64,000 nucleotides of DNA, from contig CAXKWD010000004.1 in the NCBI GenBank assembly GCA_964059195.1, positions 124,096,043-124,160,042 on the forward strand. The letters are read 5' to 3'. Below, one piece after another: positions 955-42,643 of the stretch. This DNA is from Ectobius pallidus (taxonomy: Eukaryota; Arthropoda; Insecta; Blattodea; Ectobiidae). The position numbers and the translations under genes are program-made. How positions within the stretch are numbered: the stretch's first letter is position 1; the number at the start of each line of letters is the position of its first letter. The notes under the pieces were generated by a model that saw nothing but the letters and a program-made list of their open reading frames with translations, had not been told where the DNA came from and ran no database searches.

Positions 955-3128
955 AGTAGGGATAGGTGAGGTTTACCAGCCGACGTCTAGCGTCGCGACG
1001 CCCCAACTCCGTCTTAAACTAATTGCAGTTAGGCCTTCTGGACCATCATGGCTATCATATGACACCAACCCCACACTTCTATCATCCCTCTATCCAAAGT
1101 TAAACCCAAAATTAGATTTGGTCGGGAAAACAGAGAACTGCTTGAAACAAAACATTAAAAGTCCTATTTAGGCCCTCCTGGCATCACTCCCACCCCTCTA
1201 TCATAAGCCAAGGCTCCGCACTGTGCTGATCCCATTCCAAGCCTTTTGGAACATCTTGGCTTATTATATGAAACCACCTCCACTTCTCTATCATACGTCT
1301 AACAGTAAATAAAATTATGTCGGTAAAGTAGAGACCTGCAATACCAACCTTGAAAACAATTAACTTAAATACAGTAAATATTATTAATATAAAATACGAA
1401 AATATTACCCAAATAGTTAGGCCTTTCTGAAGTAATATTTATCCCCTATGGGTAGTTGGTATTCTAGCCCATTTAAAATTTATTTTCAAGATTAAAAAAT
1501 CAAATTATGTTATAAAAAATGTAGGACATATTCTAAAACCTATTTTCACCACCTAAGGGGTTAATTTTATGAAGGGGTAGTTTTTCAAGGTCATCCAGGT
1601 TTTTGCTGATATGGACAACTTGAGCCACTGTAAATTGTCTAGAGGGTAGTTTTCATCCCAATTGCAATCTAACCCATTTAAAATTGATTTTTCGACAAAT
1701 AAACATCTTACAGAACAATATTATCTATCTGACATGATTTACACACCTAAATGACTTAATTTTACATAGGGGTGGCTTTTCAAGGTCAACCAAGATTTTG
1801 CTAATATGGACAACTTGAGCCACTATAAATCGTCTAGAGGGTAGTTTTCACCCCCACAACCAATCTAATACATTAAAATTTTATTTTTCAACAATAAAAA
1901 ATCATACTGAGTGATATCAACTATCTGACATCATTTGCAACCCGAAGGGGGTTAATTTTATTAAGGGGTAATTTTTCAAGGTCACACAAGTTTTTCCACA
2001 GATGGACAAGATAAGCCATTATAAATAATCTAGAGGGTGTTTTTCACCCCTCACAACCAATCTAACCAAGATAAAATTTATTTTTTAGATATTGATGCTA
2101 CAACAAATGTCTAAGAACGATATTAAACCCAGGATCACAAACGTTTTCTTTTTTTTCAAAAATGGACAAATTAAACTATTATAAACGTATGACATGACTG
2201 ACTAACTACCATTATATTAACCCTAACAAATCCAAAAAATAAAGTAATTTATGACAGCTAAGAATTCGTCACAGTTCCAAAGATCTGATTGGTTGAACTT
2301 TTGGTAGTATCCCATATCATTGGAGAGTTATATTTTATTTGTGAATATCTGTTCCCTCGTTATAGGATAGGATGAGAGGACACAAAATGTCTGCAAACAG
2401 AAAAAACCATCTGTAAGAAAGAGTATGTTGGAACCATTAGGACAAACACAACTCTAAAAACCCTTATCAATGCAAACAAACTGCTTGTAAAATAACAAAG
2501 ATGTGGGAAAACACAAGTGAAAACAAAGCAGAAGATGAAAATATTGTCGTCTTTGTATTAAAATTTAAAAAAATACATAATAAATACACAAATTATGATT
2601 GATCATATACATAGACAGAGGAAATGAAGCCATTTATACAATAAAATTACGAAACGATCATCCCTAACAAACTCAGAATTTGTTGGTTTGTTATAGCAAA
2701 TGTAGGACATGCCCTACTATAATCCAATGTTAAACAGGGCAAAAATAAGCCCCATCCCAACTAAAGCTAAATCCTCAAAATAATAAAATGTTATACCCAC
2801 CATAACCGGATGAAGGCTCAGCAACTCCTAATTTATGACAATGACGTACAGGATGAAAGGAGAGGTTAAACGTAAAAGGAAAGACATACCGAATGGTACA
2901 TCGCTCCTTTTTTAAAGATAAAGACAAAGAAAAATATTAGTAAAGAATGTTTATTTCAAGATTATCCTTCACCAATTAACAGATTGTACATTTTTTATGT
3001 ATCATAAGAAAGTTTATTTCATTCACAGATGGAGAATCATACACACATAGTCTATTATTTGCACAATCTGTAGGATAGCTTGGAGCACAGATGTTCACAT
3101 TATTAGTAATAAGAACAACGATAAAAGT
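955..3128 (+). repeat. Left inverted arm (2174 bp)
   Basis: This arm matches the reverse complement of 5100-7457 over almost its whole length, with scattered substitutions and small indels. It ends inward at ATAAAAGT, after which the two sides differ. It includes a 10 bp palindrome (CGTCGCGACG) near its outer end, three units of a roughly 195 bp tandem repeat, and near its inner end an inverted copy of the last codons and 3' UTR of the metalloproteinase gene. Confidence 0.9.
1463..2060. repeat. Three ~195 bp tandem units in the left arm
   Basis: A degenerate unit recurs with spacing near 196-201 bp, seen through the repeated motifs caagGTCA, CCACTATAAAT..TCTAGAGGGTAGTTTTCA and AATCTAA. The right arm holds four units at spacings of about 193-198 bp. 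The one-unit difference accounts for nearly all of the 184 bp length difference between the arms. Confidence 0.75.
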
Positions 3129-3468
3129 CAAACAAAATGATTGCTGGTCAGCAAGGGAAATTTGATCATGACTTCAATCACCACGAGGAAATGTGCGGGA
3201 GAGGAACATTTCACAACTTGTTTAATTCCTGCCAATCCTCTGATGGGAATATGGAGCAGAAAATGTGACACCAAGTGTGCAAAATTTAAGAGGACATCAC
3301 AAAAGGTATAACACAGTTAAGTTTTCGTATGATAACCAAATAGAAATTCCTTTCTTTTCTCTCAACACTTCTTTGGTTTCAGGCTGTAGATATGTTAATT
3401 TCTACGCATCAGAGGAAAATGGAGGAGAGGGGAGGTGTCGATTGCAACAGCTTACGTCATCGACAGGG
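3129..3468. other. Unique upstream region of the MMP gene
   Basis: Sequence between the inner end of the left arm and the TATA box. A 114-codon open frame spans 3265-3609, but it runs through the TATA box and start region of the metalloproteinase and has no recognisable domain, so I do not call it a gene. I see no integrase or polymerase remnant here. Confidence 0.5.
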
Positions 3469-3476
3469 TATATAAG
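3469..3476 (+). promoter_or_regulatory. TATA box (TATATAAG) of the MMP gene
   Basis: A consensus TATA box lies 42 bp upstream of the metalloproteinase start codon at 3518. A start site about 30 bp downstream would fall near 3499, at or just after an out-of-frame ATG, leaving a 5' leader of only about 20 nt. Such a compact, self-contained promoter suits a gene carried by a mobile or virus-like element. Confidence 0.6.
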
Positions 3477-3517
3477 CGGCTACATCACTGCCGAGACCAT
3501 GTTGGTGAAACTTCATC

Positions 3518-3616
3518 ATGTTACGGCTTGCAATTATTTTAACGATTGCCCTCTGTGGCTGGGCGGAGGTTATGATGGTGGACGACGACGATCAAGAAAT
3601 GGCAATTAATATCTAA
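3518..3616 (+). CDS. MMP N-terminus: signal peptide and start of propeptide
   Basis: A 32-codon frame starts at the first ATG that gives a secretory leader. It begins MLRLAIILTIALCGWAEV: one Arg, a hydrophobic core, then small and polar residues suited to signal peptidase cleavage. An acidic stretch (DDDDQE) follows, and the frame stops at 3614-3616. One frame over, the sequence is open from about 3612 and continues as SNSNTLRDKRTFEDALAMF, which reads like an MMP propeptide running into the catalytic frame. A net one-base shift around 3605-3612 therefore separates the signal peptide from the rest. It could be a mutation, an assembly error or a very short splice. The leader marks the enzyme as secreted or membrane-exported. 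Confidence 0.7.
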   Translation: MLRLAIILTIALCGWAEVMMVDDDDQEMAINI

Positions 3617-4934
3617 TAGCAACACACTACGAGACAAACGAACTTTCGAAGACGCTCTTGCCATGTTTCAAGCTAATTATGGACTTAATGTATCTTCAAA
3701 GTTAGACAATGACACTTTGATTTTAATGAGGACACCGCGATGCGGAGTTGCAGATATAACGTACTCTGAAGAGTTGAACAAGTGGAACAAAACACATTTA
3801 ACATGGAATTATAACACCATGGACCTAAAGGCTATAGAAATTGCATATAAGGCTTTTGAAAAATGGGCATCTATATCTGGTGTCACTTTCTCAAGAGATA
3901 TAAAACAACCAGATATCTTAATAACTAATCAGAGAGGATACCATAAATTTGAACTTCTCAATATGGATTGTTCTGACGATTTCGTGACACGTGACCATGT
4001 TTTAGCACATGCATTCCATCCTGGTAAGGGTATTCGTCCTGAAATTTACATTAACGACGACTTCCAATGGTCTACGAAAACGAATTTCACTGGTGATGGA
4101 AATGTCAACAGTCTGTATTACGTACTCATTCACGAAATTGGACATACGCTGGGAATACATCACTTAAACGATAAGAATGCTGTAATGTATGCATTTTACG
4201 ATCCCTATCATCCACCACTCAAATTGAACGGTAATGATATTGCTGAAGCTAAGAAACGATATGGTCCTCCGTCGTCACGACCTAAACCTCAGCCTTCACC
4301 ACCTCTGCTTCCTTCTTCGACACCTCGGCCTAGGCCTTCATCACCTAGACCTACGCCTTCATCGACTCGACCTACGCCATCATCAACTCGACCCACGCCA
4401 TCATCACCTCGACCTACGCTATCAACAACTCCTCAGTATGAATCTGGTAGACCTGTGCCGAGTATTGTTCCTGACCTCTGTAAACTGAAAAACGTTAACA
4501 CATTTATGGTAGTTAATAATGCATTATATGTGTTTTATAGAGAATGGGTATGGATTATAGATTTAGTAGATATGGAAATAAACTCTCCCTTTTTCATACC
4601 CACTTGGGTAGAGCACTTACCTAAGGAGTTTAATGTGACAGCTGTTTATCAAAAACCAAATTCCTACATCGTTTTGATAGTCGGTACTAAACAGTATCTC
4701 GTTGAACATAAAACATTTAGGCTTCAATCCGGCTATCCTAAACCTGTACCTACTTTTGGTAATAGAAACAACTCGTTGACAGCTGGTGTAAACACGAATA
4801 GAGGAATAACATATCTGTTTTATGATGACGGTTTAGTTTTAGAGATTGACGATTGTGCTGTAAAACCACCTAACTATTATTACGTTAAGAATATTTTCCC
4901 CGGGATTCCCCCAAAAAACAGAAAACGTGTTTAG
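3612..4934 (+). CDS. Matrix metalloproteinase: propeptide, catalytic domain, hinge, most of hemopexin domain
   Basis: The main open frame; its first internal ATG is at 3663, and positions below count from that Met. The cysteine-switch motif PRCGVAD (residues 25-31, Cys27) is the zymogen latch, with Ala where most MMPs have Pro. The metzincin zinc site HEIGHTLGIHH spans 157-167 (His157, Glu158, His161, His167), followed by the Met-turn AVMYAFY around Met175. A Pro/Ser/Thr-rich hinge with repeats of the type PTPSSTR covers about 202-265. A hemopexin domain starts at the Cys in VPDLC. MMPs are zinc endopeptidases that cut extracellular matrix and basement membrane. The frame stops at 4932-4934, just after FPGIPPK in the last hemopexin blade, and the neighbouring frame continues the fold. 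Catalytic residues all look intact. Insect MMPs and the MMP genes of granuloviruses are the natural comparisons. Confidence 0.93.
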   Translation, partial: SNSNTLRDKRTFEDALAMFQANYGLNVSSKLDNDTLILMRTPRCGVADITYSEELNKWNKTHLTWNYNTMDLKAIEIAYKAFEKWASISGVTFSRDIKQPDILITNQRGYHKFELLNMDCSDDFVTRDHVLAHAFHPGKGIRPEIYINDDFQWSTKTNFTGDGNVNSLYYVLIHEIGHTLGIHHLNDKNAVMYAFYDPYHPPLKLNGNDIAEAKKRYGPPSSRPKPQPSPPLLPSSTPRPRPSSPRPTPSSTRPTPSSTRPTPSSPRPTLSTTPQYESGRPVPSIVPDLCKLKNVNTFMVVNNALYVFYREWVWIIDLVDMEINSPFFIPTWVEHLPKEFNVTAVYQKPNSYIVLIVGTKQYLVEHKTFRLQSGYPKPVPTFGNRNNSLTAGVNTNRGITYLFYDDGLVLEIDDCAVKPPNYYYVKNIFPGIPPKNRKRV

Positions 4935-5133
4935 GTATACAGATGGGTTGTTATACTTCTTCCAGGATAATAAAGTAATACAATATAGTGAATTTAACAA
5001 CACCGTTGTTAATACCTTTAAGAATAGTCTTGAACTATTTGGAATAGATTGTCCACCTAAAAAGGGATTGATTAATGAAATTAAATCACTTGTATCTAAA
5101 CTTTTATCGTTGTTCTTATTACTAATAATGTGA
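4927..5133 (+). CDS. MMP C-terminus: last hemopexin blade and hydrophobic tail
   Basis: This frame begins FRYTDGLLYFFQDNKV, which fits the final hemopexin blade, and includes GIDCP, the closing Cys that normally bonds to the Cys opening the domain. The last roughly 20 residues form a hydrophobic tail ending LLSLFLLLIM. Such a tail suggests a GPI-attachment signal or a short membrane anchor, as in the membrane-linked insect MMP2 type. The frame is +1 relative to the catalytic frame, and the break falls in the A-run at about 4913-4918. The stop at 5131-5133 lies inside the right inverted arm, so the arm supplies the last 11 codons and the 3' UTR. Confidence 0.8.
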   Translation: MFRYTDGLLYFFQDNKVIQYSEFNNTVVNTFKNSLELFGIDCPPKKGLINEIKSLVSKLLSLFLLLIM

Positions 5134-5209
5134 ACATCTGTGCTCCAAGCTATCCTACAGATTGTGCAAATAATAGACTATGTGTGTATGATTCTCCATC
5201 TGTGAATGA

Positions 5210-5278
5210 AATAAACTTTCTTATGATACATAAAAAATGTACAATCTGTTAATTGGTGAAGGATAATCTTGAAATAAA
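5210..5278 (+). promoter_or_regulatory. Two AATAAA polyadenylation signals of the MMP gene
   Basis: AATAAA occurs at 5210-5215 and 5273-5278, 77 and 140 bp after the MMP stop codon. Both lie in the right inverted arm, so the left arm carries mirrored copies. Either could end an MMP transcript. Confidence 0.45.
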
Positions 5279-6160
5279 CATTCTTTACTAATATTTTTCT
5301 TTGTCTTTATTTTTAAAAAAGGAACGATGTACCATTCGGTATGTCTTTCCTTTTACGTTTAACCTCTCCTTTCATCCTGTACGTCATTGTCATAAATTAG
5401 GAGTTGCTGAGCCTTCATCCGGTTATGGTGGGTATAACATTTTATTATTTTGAGGATTTAGCTTTAGTTGGGATGGGGCTTATTTTTGCCCTGTTTAACA
5501 TTGGATATAGTAGGGCATGTCCTACATTTGCTATAACAAACCAACAAATTCTGAGTTTGTTAGGGATGATCGTTTCGTAATTTTATTGTATAAATGGCTT
5601 CATTTCCTCTGTCTATGTATATGATCAATCATAATTTGTGTATTTATTATGTATTTTTTTTAATTCTAATACAAAGACGACAATATTTTCATCTTCTGCT
5701 TTGTTTTCACTTGTGTTTTCCCACATCTTTGTTATTTTACAAGCAGTTTGTTTGCATTGATAAGGGTTTTTAGAGTTGTGTTTGTCCTAATGGTTCCAAC
5801 ATACTCTTTCTTACAGATGGTTTTTTCTGTTTGCAGACATTTTGTGTCCTCTCATCCTATCCTATAACGAGGGAACAGATATTCACAAATAAAATATAAC
5901 TCTCCAATGATATGGGATACTACCAAAAGTTCAACCAATCAGATCTTTGGAACTGTGACGAATTCTTAGCTGTCATAAATTACTTTATTTTTAGGATTTG
6001 TTAGGGTTAATATAATGGTAGTTAGTCAGTCATGTCATACATTTATAATAGTTTAAATTGTCCATTTTTGCAAAAAGAAAACGTTTGTGATCCTGGGTTT
6101 AATATCGTTCTTAGACATTTGTTGTAGCATCAATATCTAAAAAATAAATTTTATCTTGGT

Positions 6161-6944
6161 TAGATTGGTTGTGAGGGGTGAAAAACACCCTCTATATTAT
6201 TTATAATGGCTTATCTTGTCCATCTGTGGAAAAACTTGTGTGACCTTGAAAACCTACCCCTTAATAAAATTAACCCCCTTCGGGTTGTAAATGATGTCAG
6301 ATAGTTGATATCACTCAGTATGATTTTTTATTGTTGAAAAATAAAATTTTAATGTATTAGATTGGTTGTTGGGTGAAAACTACCCTCTAGACAATTTATA
6401 GTGGCTCAGGTTGTCCATTTGTGGAAAAGGTTGGTTGACCTTGAAAAACCACCCCCTCATAAAATTACCCCCTTTGGGGTGTAAATCATGTCAGATAGTT
6501 AATAATGCTCTGCAAGATGTTTATATGTCGAAAAATCAATTTAAATGGGTTAGATTGCAATTGGGGGTGAAAACTACCCTCTTGACGATTTATAGTGGCT
6601 CAAGTTGTCCATATCCGCAAAAACTTGGTTGTCCTTGAAAAGCCACCCCTATGTAAAATTAAGTCATTTAGGGGTGTAAATCATGTCAGATAGATAATAT
6701 TGTTCTGTAAGATGTTTATTTGTCGAATAATCAATTTTAAATGGGTTAGATTGCAATTGGGATGAAAACTACCCTCTAGACAATTTACAGTGGCTCAAGT
6801 GGCTCAGCAAAAACCTGGATGACCTTGAAAAACTATCCCTTCATAAAATTAACCCCTTAGGTGGTGAAAATAGGTTTTAGAATATGTCATACATTTTTAT
6901 AACATAATTTGATTTTTTAATCTTGAAAATAAATTTTAAATGGG
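6161..6944. repeat. Four ~195 bp tandem units in the right arm
   Basis: Unit starts marked by TAGATTG or a close variant fall at 6161, 6358, 6551, 6747 and a degenerate one near 6945, with spacings of 197, 193, 196 and 198 bp. Each unit carries the motif series AACTACCCTCTAGAC..TTATAGTGGCT, TTGTCCAT and GACCTTGAAAAACC, then ATGTCAGATAG. The left arm has three units. Confidence 0.8.
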
Positions 6945-7457
6945 CTAGAATACCAACTACCCATAGGGGATAAATATTACTTCAGAAAGGCCTAACTATT
7001 TGGGTAATATTTTCGTATTTTATATTAATAATATTTACTATATTTAAGTTAATTGTTTTCAAGGTTGGTATTGCAGGTCTCTACTTTACCCACATAATCT
7101 TATTTATTGTTAGACGTATGATAGAGAAGTGGAGGTGGTTTCATATGATAAGCCAAGATGTTCCAAAAGGCTTGGAATGGGATCAGCTCAGTGCGGAGCC
7201 TTGGCTTATGATAGAGGGGTGAGAGTGATGCCAGGAGGGCCTAAATAGGACTTTTAATGTTTTGTTTCAAGCAGCTCTCTGTTTTACCGACCAAATCTAA
7301 TTTTGGGCTTAACTTTGGATAGAGGGATGATAGAAGTGTGGGGTTGGTGTCATATGATAGCCATGATGGTCCAGAAGGCCTAACTGCAATTAGTTTAAGA
7401 CGGAGTTGGGGCGTCGCGACGCTAGACGTCGGCTGGTAAACCTCACCTATCCCTACT

Positions 7458-7463
7458 GAAGTG
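7458..7463. repeat. Right 6 bp target site duplication (GAAGTG)
   Basis: Exact copy of 949-954, immediately after the terminal CCCTACT of the right arm. Confidence 0.85.
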
Positions 7464-40314: not shown

Positions 40315-41624
40315 TGATGCAGCCCACTCTGTTTTTGATCTGGTACTGTTCATAAAAATCCACTGTACTTACTTGATGATGTTGTCTTCTTCTTTCTGTT
40401 ACACGTGGATACCACGGTTCACTCAATCGCAAACAACGAGATACTCTTACCTTTCTCAGGGCGTATGTGGGTGGTGAGGTTCTTAGTACTATAATAATGT
40501 CAATGTGGTATAATAATGTCAATGTCAATTGGGGTCACTTAACAAGTTTATTCAATTAATAGTTATATTTTATCAGTGTCCAAAAGTTCAACAGAATAAT
40601 TAATTGGTCCAGTGTATTTGAATGGAATTTAGTTCTGGCAATCACTGCTTCTACGTAATAAAAATTGTGATGCTGAGATGAACTTACGTAATATTTAATT
40701 ATATGACGTTATCTATCAACTTGTCGTTGCTTACTTCGTAATATTCACTGTCTTTACAGTAATAAGCCACAACACAGCTTTTACTACAAATCACGTAGTT
40801 CACTGATTCTATACTGGTGAGAAACTACAATATAGCCTCACCTATTAGTGATTTTATAATAAATTAGACTGTCGGATTGGCCACTATGCCAATACGACCT
40901 GCTGTGACCTGCTCTCGGCAGCTACACAAGTTTACGACCGGTCTGCACCTCTGCAGTGACACAAGTAAGTTCCGTTCGAAGCCGTGATACTAACTTCCCT
41001 TCAAATATCACTGTTCTCCACCACATCTTACTAACTAATCATTTTCCCTCTTATATCTAGTTTTTGTGTTTCTTACTTTAACCTTACATTCTATTGGTCC
41101 ATCACTTCGTAGCTTGGTTTCAGCTCTTAAGTAACGCTTACACGCGTCTTCTTCCAGGCTATTCTCCGTATTCTAGCTCATTCCTTGTAATGCCTATACA
41201 GCTTGCAATTCCCAGCTCTGATTCTAGTGAAGTCTCTATTCAGTCAGTAATACTTTCATTCTCTAAGTTTTGCACAGAATAGAAGTGCACATTTTACACA
41301 AAGCGTGTCGCCTGTCCCCTGCTGATATTCTATACACTGTACTAGTGTGCTATTGACTGGTTCTCCGAAATTCGTCTGGCCACAACTTATTCTGCTATAA
41401 AATGTTTATTTTATCATTACAAATTGCTTGATTTCTCTTAATGTATTCTTACTATGATGCTCTTAATAATATTGCGTGACTTGTTATTTTATTCCCCTCC
41501 TTCTGATATAATTTTAGTAGTAGGCTATAATTAGTTTGGCTGTTATGAAAGATTATCGCTTTATATTATTTTAATATTATTTTATATCGATATATGAATC
41601 ATGGCAATAGCTATGATGATCTCA
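40315..41624. mobile_element. Putative solo LTR (1310 bp) inside the LINE
   Basis: Begins TGATGCAGCC and ends GATGATCTCA, with CTAC duplicated on either side. It holds no retroviral open frame and removes cleanly from the reverse transcriptase reading frame. TG...CA ends, a 4 bp duplication and no coding capacity fit a solo LTR left by recombination. A non-autonomous TG/CA element is the alternative. Confidence 0.65.
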
Positions 41625-42321
41625 CTACAACTTGATCGTCTGCAAAATACAGGCTACCTATCTTACTATTCTTTACTGGAACCCCCATAACTTGACAATT
41701 TCTGAGCCAATTCTTTAGGATTGCTCCTAGATATAACTTAAAGAGGGTCGATGACAGCCCACATCCTTGCCGCAGACTCTTACTAACCTCGAATTCTTCT
41801 GTCCAACTATTCCCAATCCTTACTCTCGCTTTGTTATTTTCATACAATTTCCTAACAGCCTTAATCAATCTTTGATCCAACTCCATCTCTTCCAACTTTT
41901 CCCACAATTTGTTGATAGGTACATATGCCTTTTCAAGATGAATCATGTGTCATGTGTCTCCAACCCTGTACGTTTTTCACCTATTATTTTTAAAGTAAAG
42001 ATGTTATCCATTACCGATCTTCCTGCCCGAAATCCTGCCTGTTCCTCTTGTTGTTTGTATCTTGTTTCTTTCTCAATCAAGTCTTTAAGTACTTTCGAGT
42101 ACAGTCTTCCAATGAAGGGGATCACTGCCAGTCCTCTATAATTATCCGGATCATTACGTGATCCTTTCTTATGCATCTGTATTATATAACACGTCGTCCA
42201 TTCCGATGGCACATTCTCTCCATTTAATATTCTTTCCAACAACTTCCTAAGCTTCTCCAACAATTCCGGTGGCCCAAACTTCACCAGCTCTGGGTATATT
42301 GATATAGCTATTGCATTAATT
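41625..42321 (-). pseudogene. LINE reverse transcriptase, fingers and palm
   Basis: Reads from ELVKFGPPELLEKL through PSEWTTCYIIQMHKKGS and PDNYRGLAVIPFIGRLYSKVL, then EEQAGFRAGRSVMDNIFTL, and after a frameshift near 41945 continues to SLRQGCGLSSTLFKLYL and the catalytic-loop motif YFADDQVV. The order and motifs are those of a non-LTR reverse transcriptase. Leu-Arg-Gln-Gly-Cys replaces the usual LRQG-D/C motif acceptably, and the FADD box is intact. Confidence 0.88.
42309..42321. repeat. 13 bp target duplication of SINE copy B
   Basis: TATTGCATTAATT here is repeated exactly at 42644-42656. Sequence after the right copy continues the LINE frame for a few codons. Confidence 0.85.
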
Positions 42322-42643
42322 GTCCGCCAGCGTGGTCTTGTGGTTAGCGTCGCTGACTACAGATCCGTCGGTCCGGGTTCGATTCCCGGTACCTCCTCGG
42401 ATTTTTCTGAGGTAGGGAGGTCTGGTAGGGGTGCACTCAGCCTCGTGATTCAAAATTGAGGAGCTACTTGATAGAGAAGTAGCGGCTCCGGTCAAGAAAA
42501 CCACCATTAACGGCCGTGGGAGTCAGCATGCTGACCACATGCCCCCAATCCTGCCATCTGTTTACGGGAGATGACGCAGCGGTCGGGTGGTAGGCCAAGT
42601 CCCTCCAGGGATGTAGCGCCACGGAGTTTAGTTTAGTTTAGTT
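42322..42643 (+). mobile_element. tRNA-derived SINE, family 1, copy B
   Basis: The best-preserved copy of the family. It has the A box TGGTCTTGTGGTTAGCGTCG, the B box GGTTCGATTCCC, the body phrases as in copy A, and the tail TTTAGTTTAGTTTAG. It is flanked by a perfect 13 bp duplication inside LINE sequence, so it inserted after the LINE. Confidence 0.92.

Follow-up and report, generated by a model that had tools for sequence, protein, structure and literature searches.

A 64,000-nt stretch of the genome of the insect Ectobius pallidus (assembly GCA_964059195.1, contig CAXKWD010000004.1, positions 124,096,043 to 124,160,042 of the forward strand; hereafter the window) contains a mobile insertion, E1, at window positions 955-7457. 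It is bounded by inverted arms, AG...CT ends and an exact 6-bp duplication, and it carries a matrix metalloproteinase (MMP) gene. In its relatives the MMP and a BIR gene of the IAP type are carried within the inverted arms themselves; the element is present in many copies, and many of the gene frames are intact. The favoured reading, held with fair rather than high confidence, is that these elements are non-autonomous satellites of palindromic form, that an integrase of the Polinton type moves them and that hairpin copying equalises their arms.

Anatomy of E1 and its dispersed copies

Alignment of the arms of E1 places the left one at 955-3128 (plus strand, 2174 nt, starting AGTAGGG) and the right one at 5100-7457 (minus strand, 2358 nt, last letters CCCTACT). 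The termini read AGTAG...CTACT, and the target-site duplication GAAGTG is present in exact copies at 949-954 and 7458-7463. Inverted arms of over 2 kb, exact 6-bp duplications and AG-starting ends had all been proposed in the initial annotation of this DNA, and all three are borne out. The arms are 98.5% identical (33 mismatches in 2165 aligned sites). The right arm is longer by about 193 nt, which is one extra tandem unit: repeats of ~196 nt occupy 1555-2085 in the left arm (plus strand, 2.7 units) and repeats of ~195 nt occupy 6176-6871 in the right arm (minus strand, 3.6 units).

The source genome measures 2.12 Gb. The arm piece 955-1455 (501 nt) has at least 48 matches (best 40 of 712 candidates scored), far more than chance would give and many of them as inverted pairs, and the corresponding piece of another copy, E5, has at least 46 (best 40 of 733). 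Merged, both queries mark 50 places; 32 of these face each other in 16 pairs at distances of 6-20 kb, and the other 18 have no partner among the listed matches. Ten copies were read, E1 and E2-E10, the latter in separate pieces. All ten have AG...CT terminal inverted repeats with AGTAG...CTACT ends, and nine have an exact 6-bp target duplication, with five of the six bases matching in E4. The initial annotation had suggested looking for further copies with 6-bp duplications, and such copies are indeed dispersed through the genome. The outcomes named beforehand as refuting it (no other copy in any genome, arms explained by a single local inverted duplication of a host MMP locus, matching arms around an unrelated transposase with another duplication length) were not seen.

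One insertion, E6, lies in a short interspersed element (SINE), tRNA-like on the reading of its flank. Joining the flanks of E6 gives the sequence of the empty site, and all 40 places scored, out of 2582 candidates, match it across the junction at 93-97% identity. The whole-genome search for empty sites covered E6 only; among the fetched loci there was no empty site for any of the ten copies, and the joined flanks of E5 matched only their own flank (69-71%).

An exact subterminal motif has 118 genome matches (58 and 60 on the two strands), while its reversed control has none. Of the listed 100, 66 face each other in 33 pairs at distances of 3.2-27 kb; nine of the pairs enclose a listed MMP. 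Since the pair of E1 is among these nine, E1 and the MMP-bearing elements form one family.

The copies read are largely inverted repeat, with arms of 2.2-7.2 kb. The spacers of E2, E7 and E8 are only ~140-170 nt long, and unique centres reach 2.5 kb in E3 and 4.1 kb in E6. Open reading frames (ORFs) of at least 110 aa in E2-E9 are limited to one low-complexity frame (locus L014) and one arm ORF (L023). E10 contains a nested retroelement: at L026 (C379:219000-225999) a retroelement-like unit of ~4.16 kb, with DUF1759 and a weak aspartyl protease match, occurs twice in tandem. Outside E1, the window has RVT_1 reverse-transcriptase fragments of a retroelement at 41611-42356 (minus strand). The database hits of a reverse-transcriptase fragment from the window are all distant; the single one with a name is from Cacopsylla (40%).

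Genes of the family and their relatives

The centre of E1 gives a Peptidase_M10 match (Pfam, 87 bits) and a stromelysin-2 match (1.4e-29); the six-frame Pfam scan of the element returned Peptidase_M10 and a weak, sub-cutoff Hemopexin match only. Aligned to an intact relative, the E1 gene runs through three frames on the plus strand, with two frame breaks, and a stretch of prodomain residues is absent. The 5' frame (3476-3610, by tblastn alignment) holds the ATG at 3518, the signal peptide and the prodomain start. The main frame (3606-4916) holds the prodomain end, the catalytic domain, a Pro/Ser-rich hinge and the hemopexin start, with the cysteine-switch motif PRCGVAD at 3735-3755 and the zinc-binding motif HEIGHTLGIHH at 4131-4163. 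The 3' frame beyond the second break (4900-5085) runs on into the right arm. Because the gene is split over three frames and has lost prodomain residues, it is probably a pseudogene. The MMP layout reported earlier for the centre is therefore present in its domains, but the gene is not complete. An intact relative at L043 has the full matrix metalloproteinase (M10A) layout, with PG_binding_1, Peptidase_M10 and Hemopexin in Pfam; the E1 copy is broken. The TATA box noted upstream of the gene was found again (TATATAAG, 3469-3476, plus strand, upstream of the first ATG). It is shared by most relatives checked: of 20 MMP loci examined, the start-context string was found in 15 (E1 counted), and 14 of these have TATATAA.

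The left arm of E1 stops at ~3128, where it meets the interior of an ORF called P148. The P148 remnant (3125-3308, plus strand) lies in two frames (3125-3196 and 3192-3308), its start being lost at the inner junction near 3128. The corresponding point of the right arm lies within the MMP, in its 3' end. The right arm thus includes part of the cargo, and the two are not separate units in E1. This pair of junctions is the reason for reading E1 as a fold-back derivative, which would consist of one element end (3129-7457) and an inverted copy of its outer part.

The centres between paired MMP genes elsewhere were read in three cases (L049-L051). Two contain a BIR ORF (IAP type; 2e-19 for the one scanned), and the centres also hold two uncharacterised ORFs, EXO and P148. 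L050 is a 7.25-kb palindrome at 99% identity, and L049 and L051 have unique centres. With the E1 MMP as query, 148 genome rows merged to 93 places (best 93 of 1280 candidates). An open frame of at least 500 aa, with no stop in any listed stretch, is present in 64 of these. Divergent (head-to-head) pairs 4-12 kb apart account for 68 places (34 pairs), no pair is convergent, and 25 places, including E1, are unpaired; neighbouring MMPs within 15 kb (n=36) are oriented -+ in 34 cases, ++ in one and -- in one. All places besides E1 are 85-95% identical to the query, except one at 69%. The MMP genes are intronless, and 17 of the 20 MMP loci fetched (E1 counted) keep the zinc-binding motif in frame. 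EXO lies within 12 kb of 64 of the 93 places and BIR within 12 kb of 68.

Read from the end inwards, gene-bearing members consist of the terminus, the 195-nt tandem repeats, MMP, P148, BIR, EXO and the centre, after which the order is repeated in reverse for a length that varies. Palindromes that have the same ends but no genes make up the other members. E2, E4 and E6-E10 have no EXO, BIR, MMP or P148 match; E3 holds shorter pieces of BIR and P148, and E5 shorter pieces of BIR, EXO and P148. The earlier view of the MMP as sole cargo does not survive: besides the MMP, gene-bearing members have BIR and two further ORFs, frequently on both sides of the palindrome. E1 itself is a derivative that has been shortened and has decayed. 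EXO has no Pfam or PHROG match, its predicted fold is poor (pLDDT, predicted local distance difference test, 41.5), and its two database relatives are both without names. Some arms have low-complexity arrays with several open frames in the interval from MMP to BIR (L050:465-844 and L051:438-920). Three unpaired BIR genes (C6:47581976, 47600267 and 47624143; 85%, 122-aa frame), ~18-24 kb apart, possibly belong to longer single-BIR elements. A single MMP copy at C3:113.17 Mb was considered as an unfolded parent and rejected: the DNA inward of its EXO has tandem repeats like those of the E3 host flank, and the copy looks truncated.

EXO also occurs, at ~63% identity, in 67 further listed places. 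These form 29 pairs, 18 of them with an identical spacing of 7781 nt (for example C1:29948022-29956309, with L061 at C1:29949800-29952000), and some pairs adjoin each other. Between such an EXO pair lies a 405-aa frame, of which the 332 aa read give a weak, sub-cutoff BED zinc-finger match. This ORF is itself paired (best 121 of 3582 candidates scored), and ORFs similar to it occur in Polintons. With this second abundant palindromic family, which shares EXO, palindromic organisation is seen to be widespread in the genome rather than particular to E1.

The nearest MMPs in protein databases are 30-39% identical and come from ants, a ladybird and contigs without names. The ants are Temnothorax (34 member sequences), Cyphomyrmex, Pogonomyrmex and Trachymyrmex, and the ladybird is Henosepilachna (13 members). 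In a tree of 79 rows, with no granulovirus or baculovirus MMP among the sequences compared, 11 database rows and 12 rows from this genome form a clade of 23 with support 100/100. A nine-row clade with insect MMP2 proteins is separate from it and has the same support. The Temnothorax cluster (P0002) and the Henosepilachna cluster (P0007) lie in the element MMP clade; they are possibly element-borne there too.

Movement and copying of the elements

Ends of the form AG...CT are a trait of Polintons. The 6-bp duplication of the element copies is another: in the available text of two sources, Polintons are described as producing duplications of 6 bp (PMC10045372) or 5-6 bp (PMC8547959). IS3EU and GingerRoot elements, which the available text of PMC10045372 gives as having a 6-bp duplication with TA..TA (or TG..CA) ends, differ from these elements in their termini.

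The genes of a Polinton were not recognised in the elements examined. Pfam scans in six frames for E1 and L019 (the left piece of E7), and on one strand of the near-palindromic L050, found no PolB (PF03175), rve integrase (cut-off E 0.01), capsid or packaging ATPase, with the limit that a capsid gene without a Pfam model would escape them; the other elements read were judged for integrase by ORF size only. A single sub-cutoff TcpC-like_C match in L019 was taken as chance. The genome itself has at least 151 PolB matches, merged to 75 places (best 75 of 1704 candidates). Eight PolB loci (L052-L059) belong to one family: seven are ~94-100% alike over 965 aa, and the eighth, which is broken, is ~91% alike over 365 aa. 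A further ORF adjoins PolB in seven of the eight, and the one scanned matches the poxvirus A32 packaging ATPase. Judged from these sequences, recently active Polintons are present in the genome. The genome's own PolB and ATPase were used as tblastn queries over the fetched loci outside L052-L059 and matched none of them. E1 is therefore called Polinton-like and non-autonomous, and not a Polinton: no polymerase, integrase or packaging gene could be recognised in the examined elements, and no listed PolB lies within 40 kb of a listed MMP, EXO or arm.

On the favoured reading, E1 would be a non-autonomous fold-back member of a palindromic mobile element family, inserted by a Polinton-type integrase supplied from another element. 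An integrase acting in trans would explain the AG...CT ends and the 6-bp duplications. The element would be copied via a self-complementary single strand (hairpin or panhandle), and the arms would stay alike because one arm templates both during such copying. E1 may have arisen when, in a copy of this kind, one arm became linked by its inner end to the interior of P148, leaving a single MMP that decayed afterwards. MMP and IAP-type BIR genes occur in large insect viruses, and in a virus-like phase of the elements they would probably be of use in matrix degradation and in blocking cell death, respectively.

Arm identity would fit such copying. Within eight of the ten elements it exceeds 99% (E2 99.95%, E3 99.7%, E5 99.85%, E6 99.9%, E7 99.9%, E8 99.6%, E9 99.97%, E10 99.7%), and in E4 it is 97.5-97.8%. 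Between E1 and E2-E10 identity is 82-87% in the outermost aligned segment and 74-83% further in; among E2-E10 it ranges from ~70% to 98% by segment. A centre offset of 458 nt is common to ten EXO pairs (on C1, C2, C3, C6, C7 twice, C10, C11 and C356 twice), which are 95-99% identical to the query. The shared offset, together with EXO sequences which differ between loci yet score equally in both arms in seven of the ten, suggests one founding palindrome whose arms evolve in concert. A palindrome founded once with freely diverging arms would not be expected to give such equal scores; hairpin copying would.

Several observations weigh against this reading. The arms could also be highly identical because the insertions are recent, or because gene conversion acted on them once they were inserted, and the ten EXO loci may include duplicates of each other. 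Some elements are alike throughout: E2 and E9 are 97.5% identical over 6.4 kb and E7 and E8 97.9% over 7.1 kb, while E7 and E10 reach 98% over ~2 kb and several other pairs 91-98% in long segments. No helper is linked to the elements among the best 75 of 1704 PolB candidates: all 75 listed places are more than 40 kb away from any listed MMP, EXO or arm, two are closer than this to a BIR (30 and 37 kb), and none of the 33 terminus pairs encloses a listed PolB. The satellite-like Polinton derivative of the initial annotation is supported in its non-autonomous character and its 6-bp duplications, but not in its link to a parent bearing PolB and integrase. For only 17 of the 93 MMP places is there a listed terminus motif at a distance of 10 kb or less, 18 of the 118 motif places being unlisted; the remaining MMP places may carry variants of the motif. 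Finally, among 11 copies from this genome with long frames the MMP has a ratio of nonsynonymous to synonymous substitution rates (dN/dS) of 0.59, calculated as a ratio of sums, which indicates only weak purifying selection.

A wider version of the hairpin reading is put forward tentatively. It would make these elements a whole-genome hairpin satellite system of Polinton-type viruses, in which every round of copying restores one arm from its counterpart. The system would be split over families which share EXO and differ in accessory genes, and one of them would disseminate an MMP together with an inhibitor of apoptosis within the host genome and perhaps from insect to insect.

It is unlikely that the palindromes are instead a separate transposon class, moving themselves by an uncharacterised protein of their own (EXO, or the zinc-finger ORF in the second family). 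EXO is common to both palindromic families, the zinc-finger ORF is numerous, and no listed PolB lies near either. However, EXO resembles no Pfam or PHROG entry and its fold could not be predicted, and the seven copies devoid of EXO, BIR, MMP and P148 would need to be moved in trans anyway. The palindromes could also derive from a multipartite viral relative of Polintons or bidnaviruses, as endogenised genome segments that each have their own genes. Two families sharing EXO and differing in other genes would fit this, as would accessory genes of viral type (BIR and MMP), and up to twelve segments are given for the bidna-like insect Vesanto virus in the available text of PMC8363768. This explanation is improbable: the elements read show no recognisable gene for a capsid, a polymerase or any other replication function, and viral contigs scanned with the MMP, the zinc-finger ORF and PolB yielded no relatives of these.

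That a single element recently captured a host MMP, as the title of the initial annotation implies, is very improbable. The domain layout is that of animal MMPs, but the other copies among the 93 scored places refute such a capture for E1, and the ant and ladybird clade is distinct from that of insect MMP2, both fully supported. The dispersed copies refute the idea that a host MMP locus was duplicated locally in inverted orientation. Although long palindromes are an assembly hazard, the probability of either this or an assembly artefact is negligible, given that the copies are spread over many contigs, that 6-bp duplications flank the elements, that there is an empty site, that the genes lack introns and that the arms differ by 0.03-2.5%.

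Comparison with known systems

The literature search found no description of a Polinton- or Maverick-like element with a metalloproteinase, most subscription papers being beyond its coverage. Among the listed papers pairing Polintons with palindromes, none concerns such elements by title and abstract start, and in the available text of PMC4981718 the metalloprotein- wording beside Polinton concerns Poxviridae. The family described here may be a route by which MMP and BIR genes pass between hosts and viruses. It is also a natural system for measuring the homogenisation of palindrome arms over many insertions.

The intact element copies have the signal peptide, cysteine-switch prodomain, M10 catalytic domain, hinge and hemopexin repeats of insect MMP2 and probably of granulovirus MMP. 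Unlike insect MMP2, the element MMP is intronless, mobile and placed in a separate clade of the tree. With Polinton/Maverick elements, including adintoviruses, the family shares 6-bp duplications, terminal inverted repeats and AG...CT ends, and recently active Polintons reside in the same genome. It differs from them in that no PolB, integrase or packaging ATPase was found in the examined elements, which are mostly inverted repeat and in many copies carry MMP and BIR in both arms. Foldback-type elements (FB, Galileo) likewise have very long inverted arms with internal tandem repeats. Foldback superfamilies produce longer target duplications, whereas here the duplications are of 6 bp, the ends start with AG and the arms contain coding genes. 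The snap-back defective genomes of linear DNA viruses have one end duplicated in inverted orientation, with a junction that varies, and E1, L049 and L051 resemble them in this. In contrast to these, the elements of E. pallidus are dispersed genomic insertions with target duplications, and one palindrome type has been multiplied as such.

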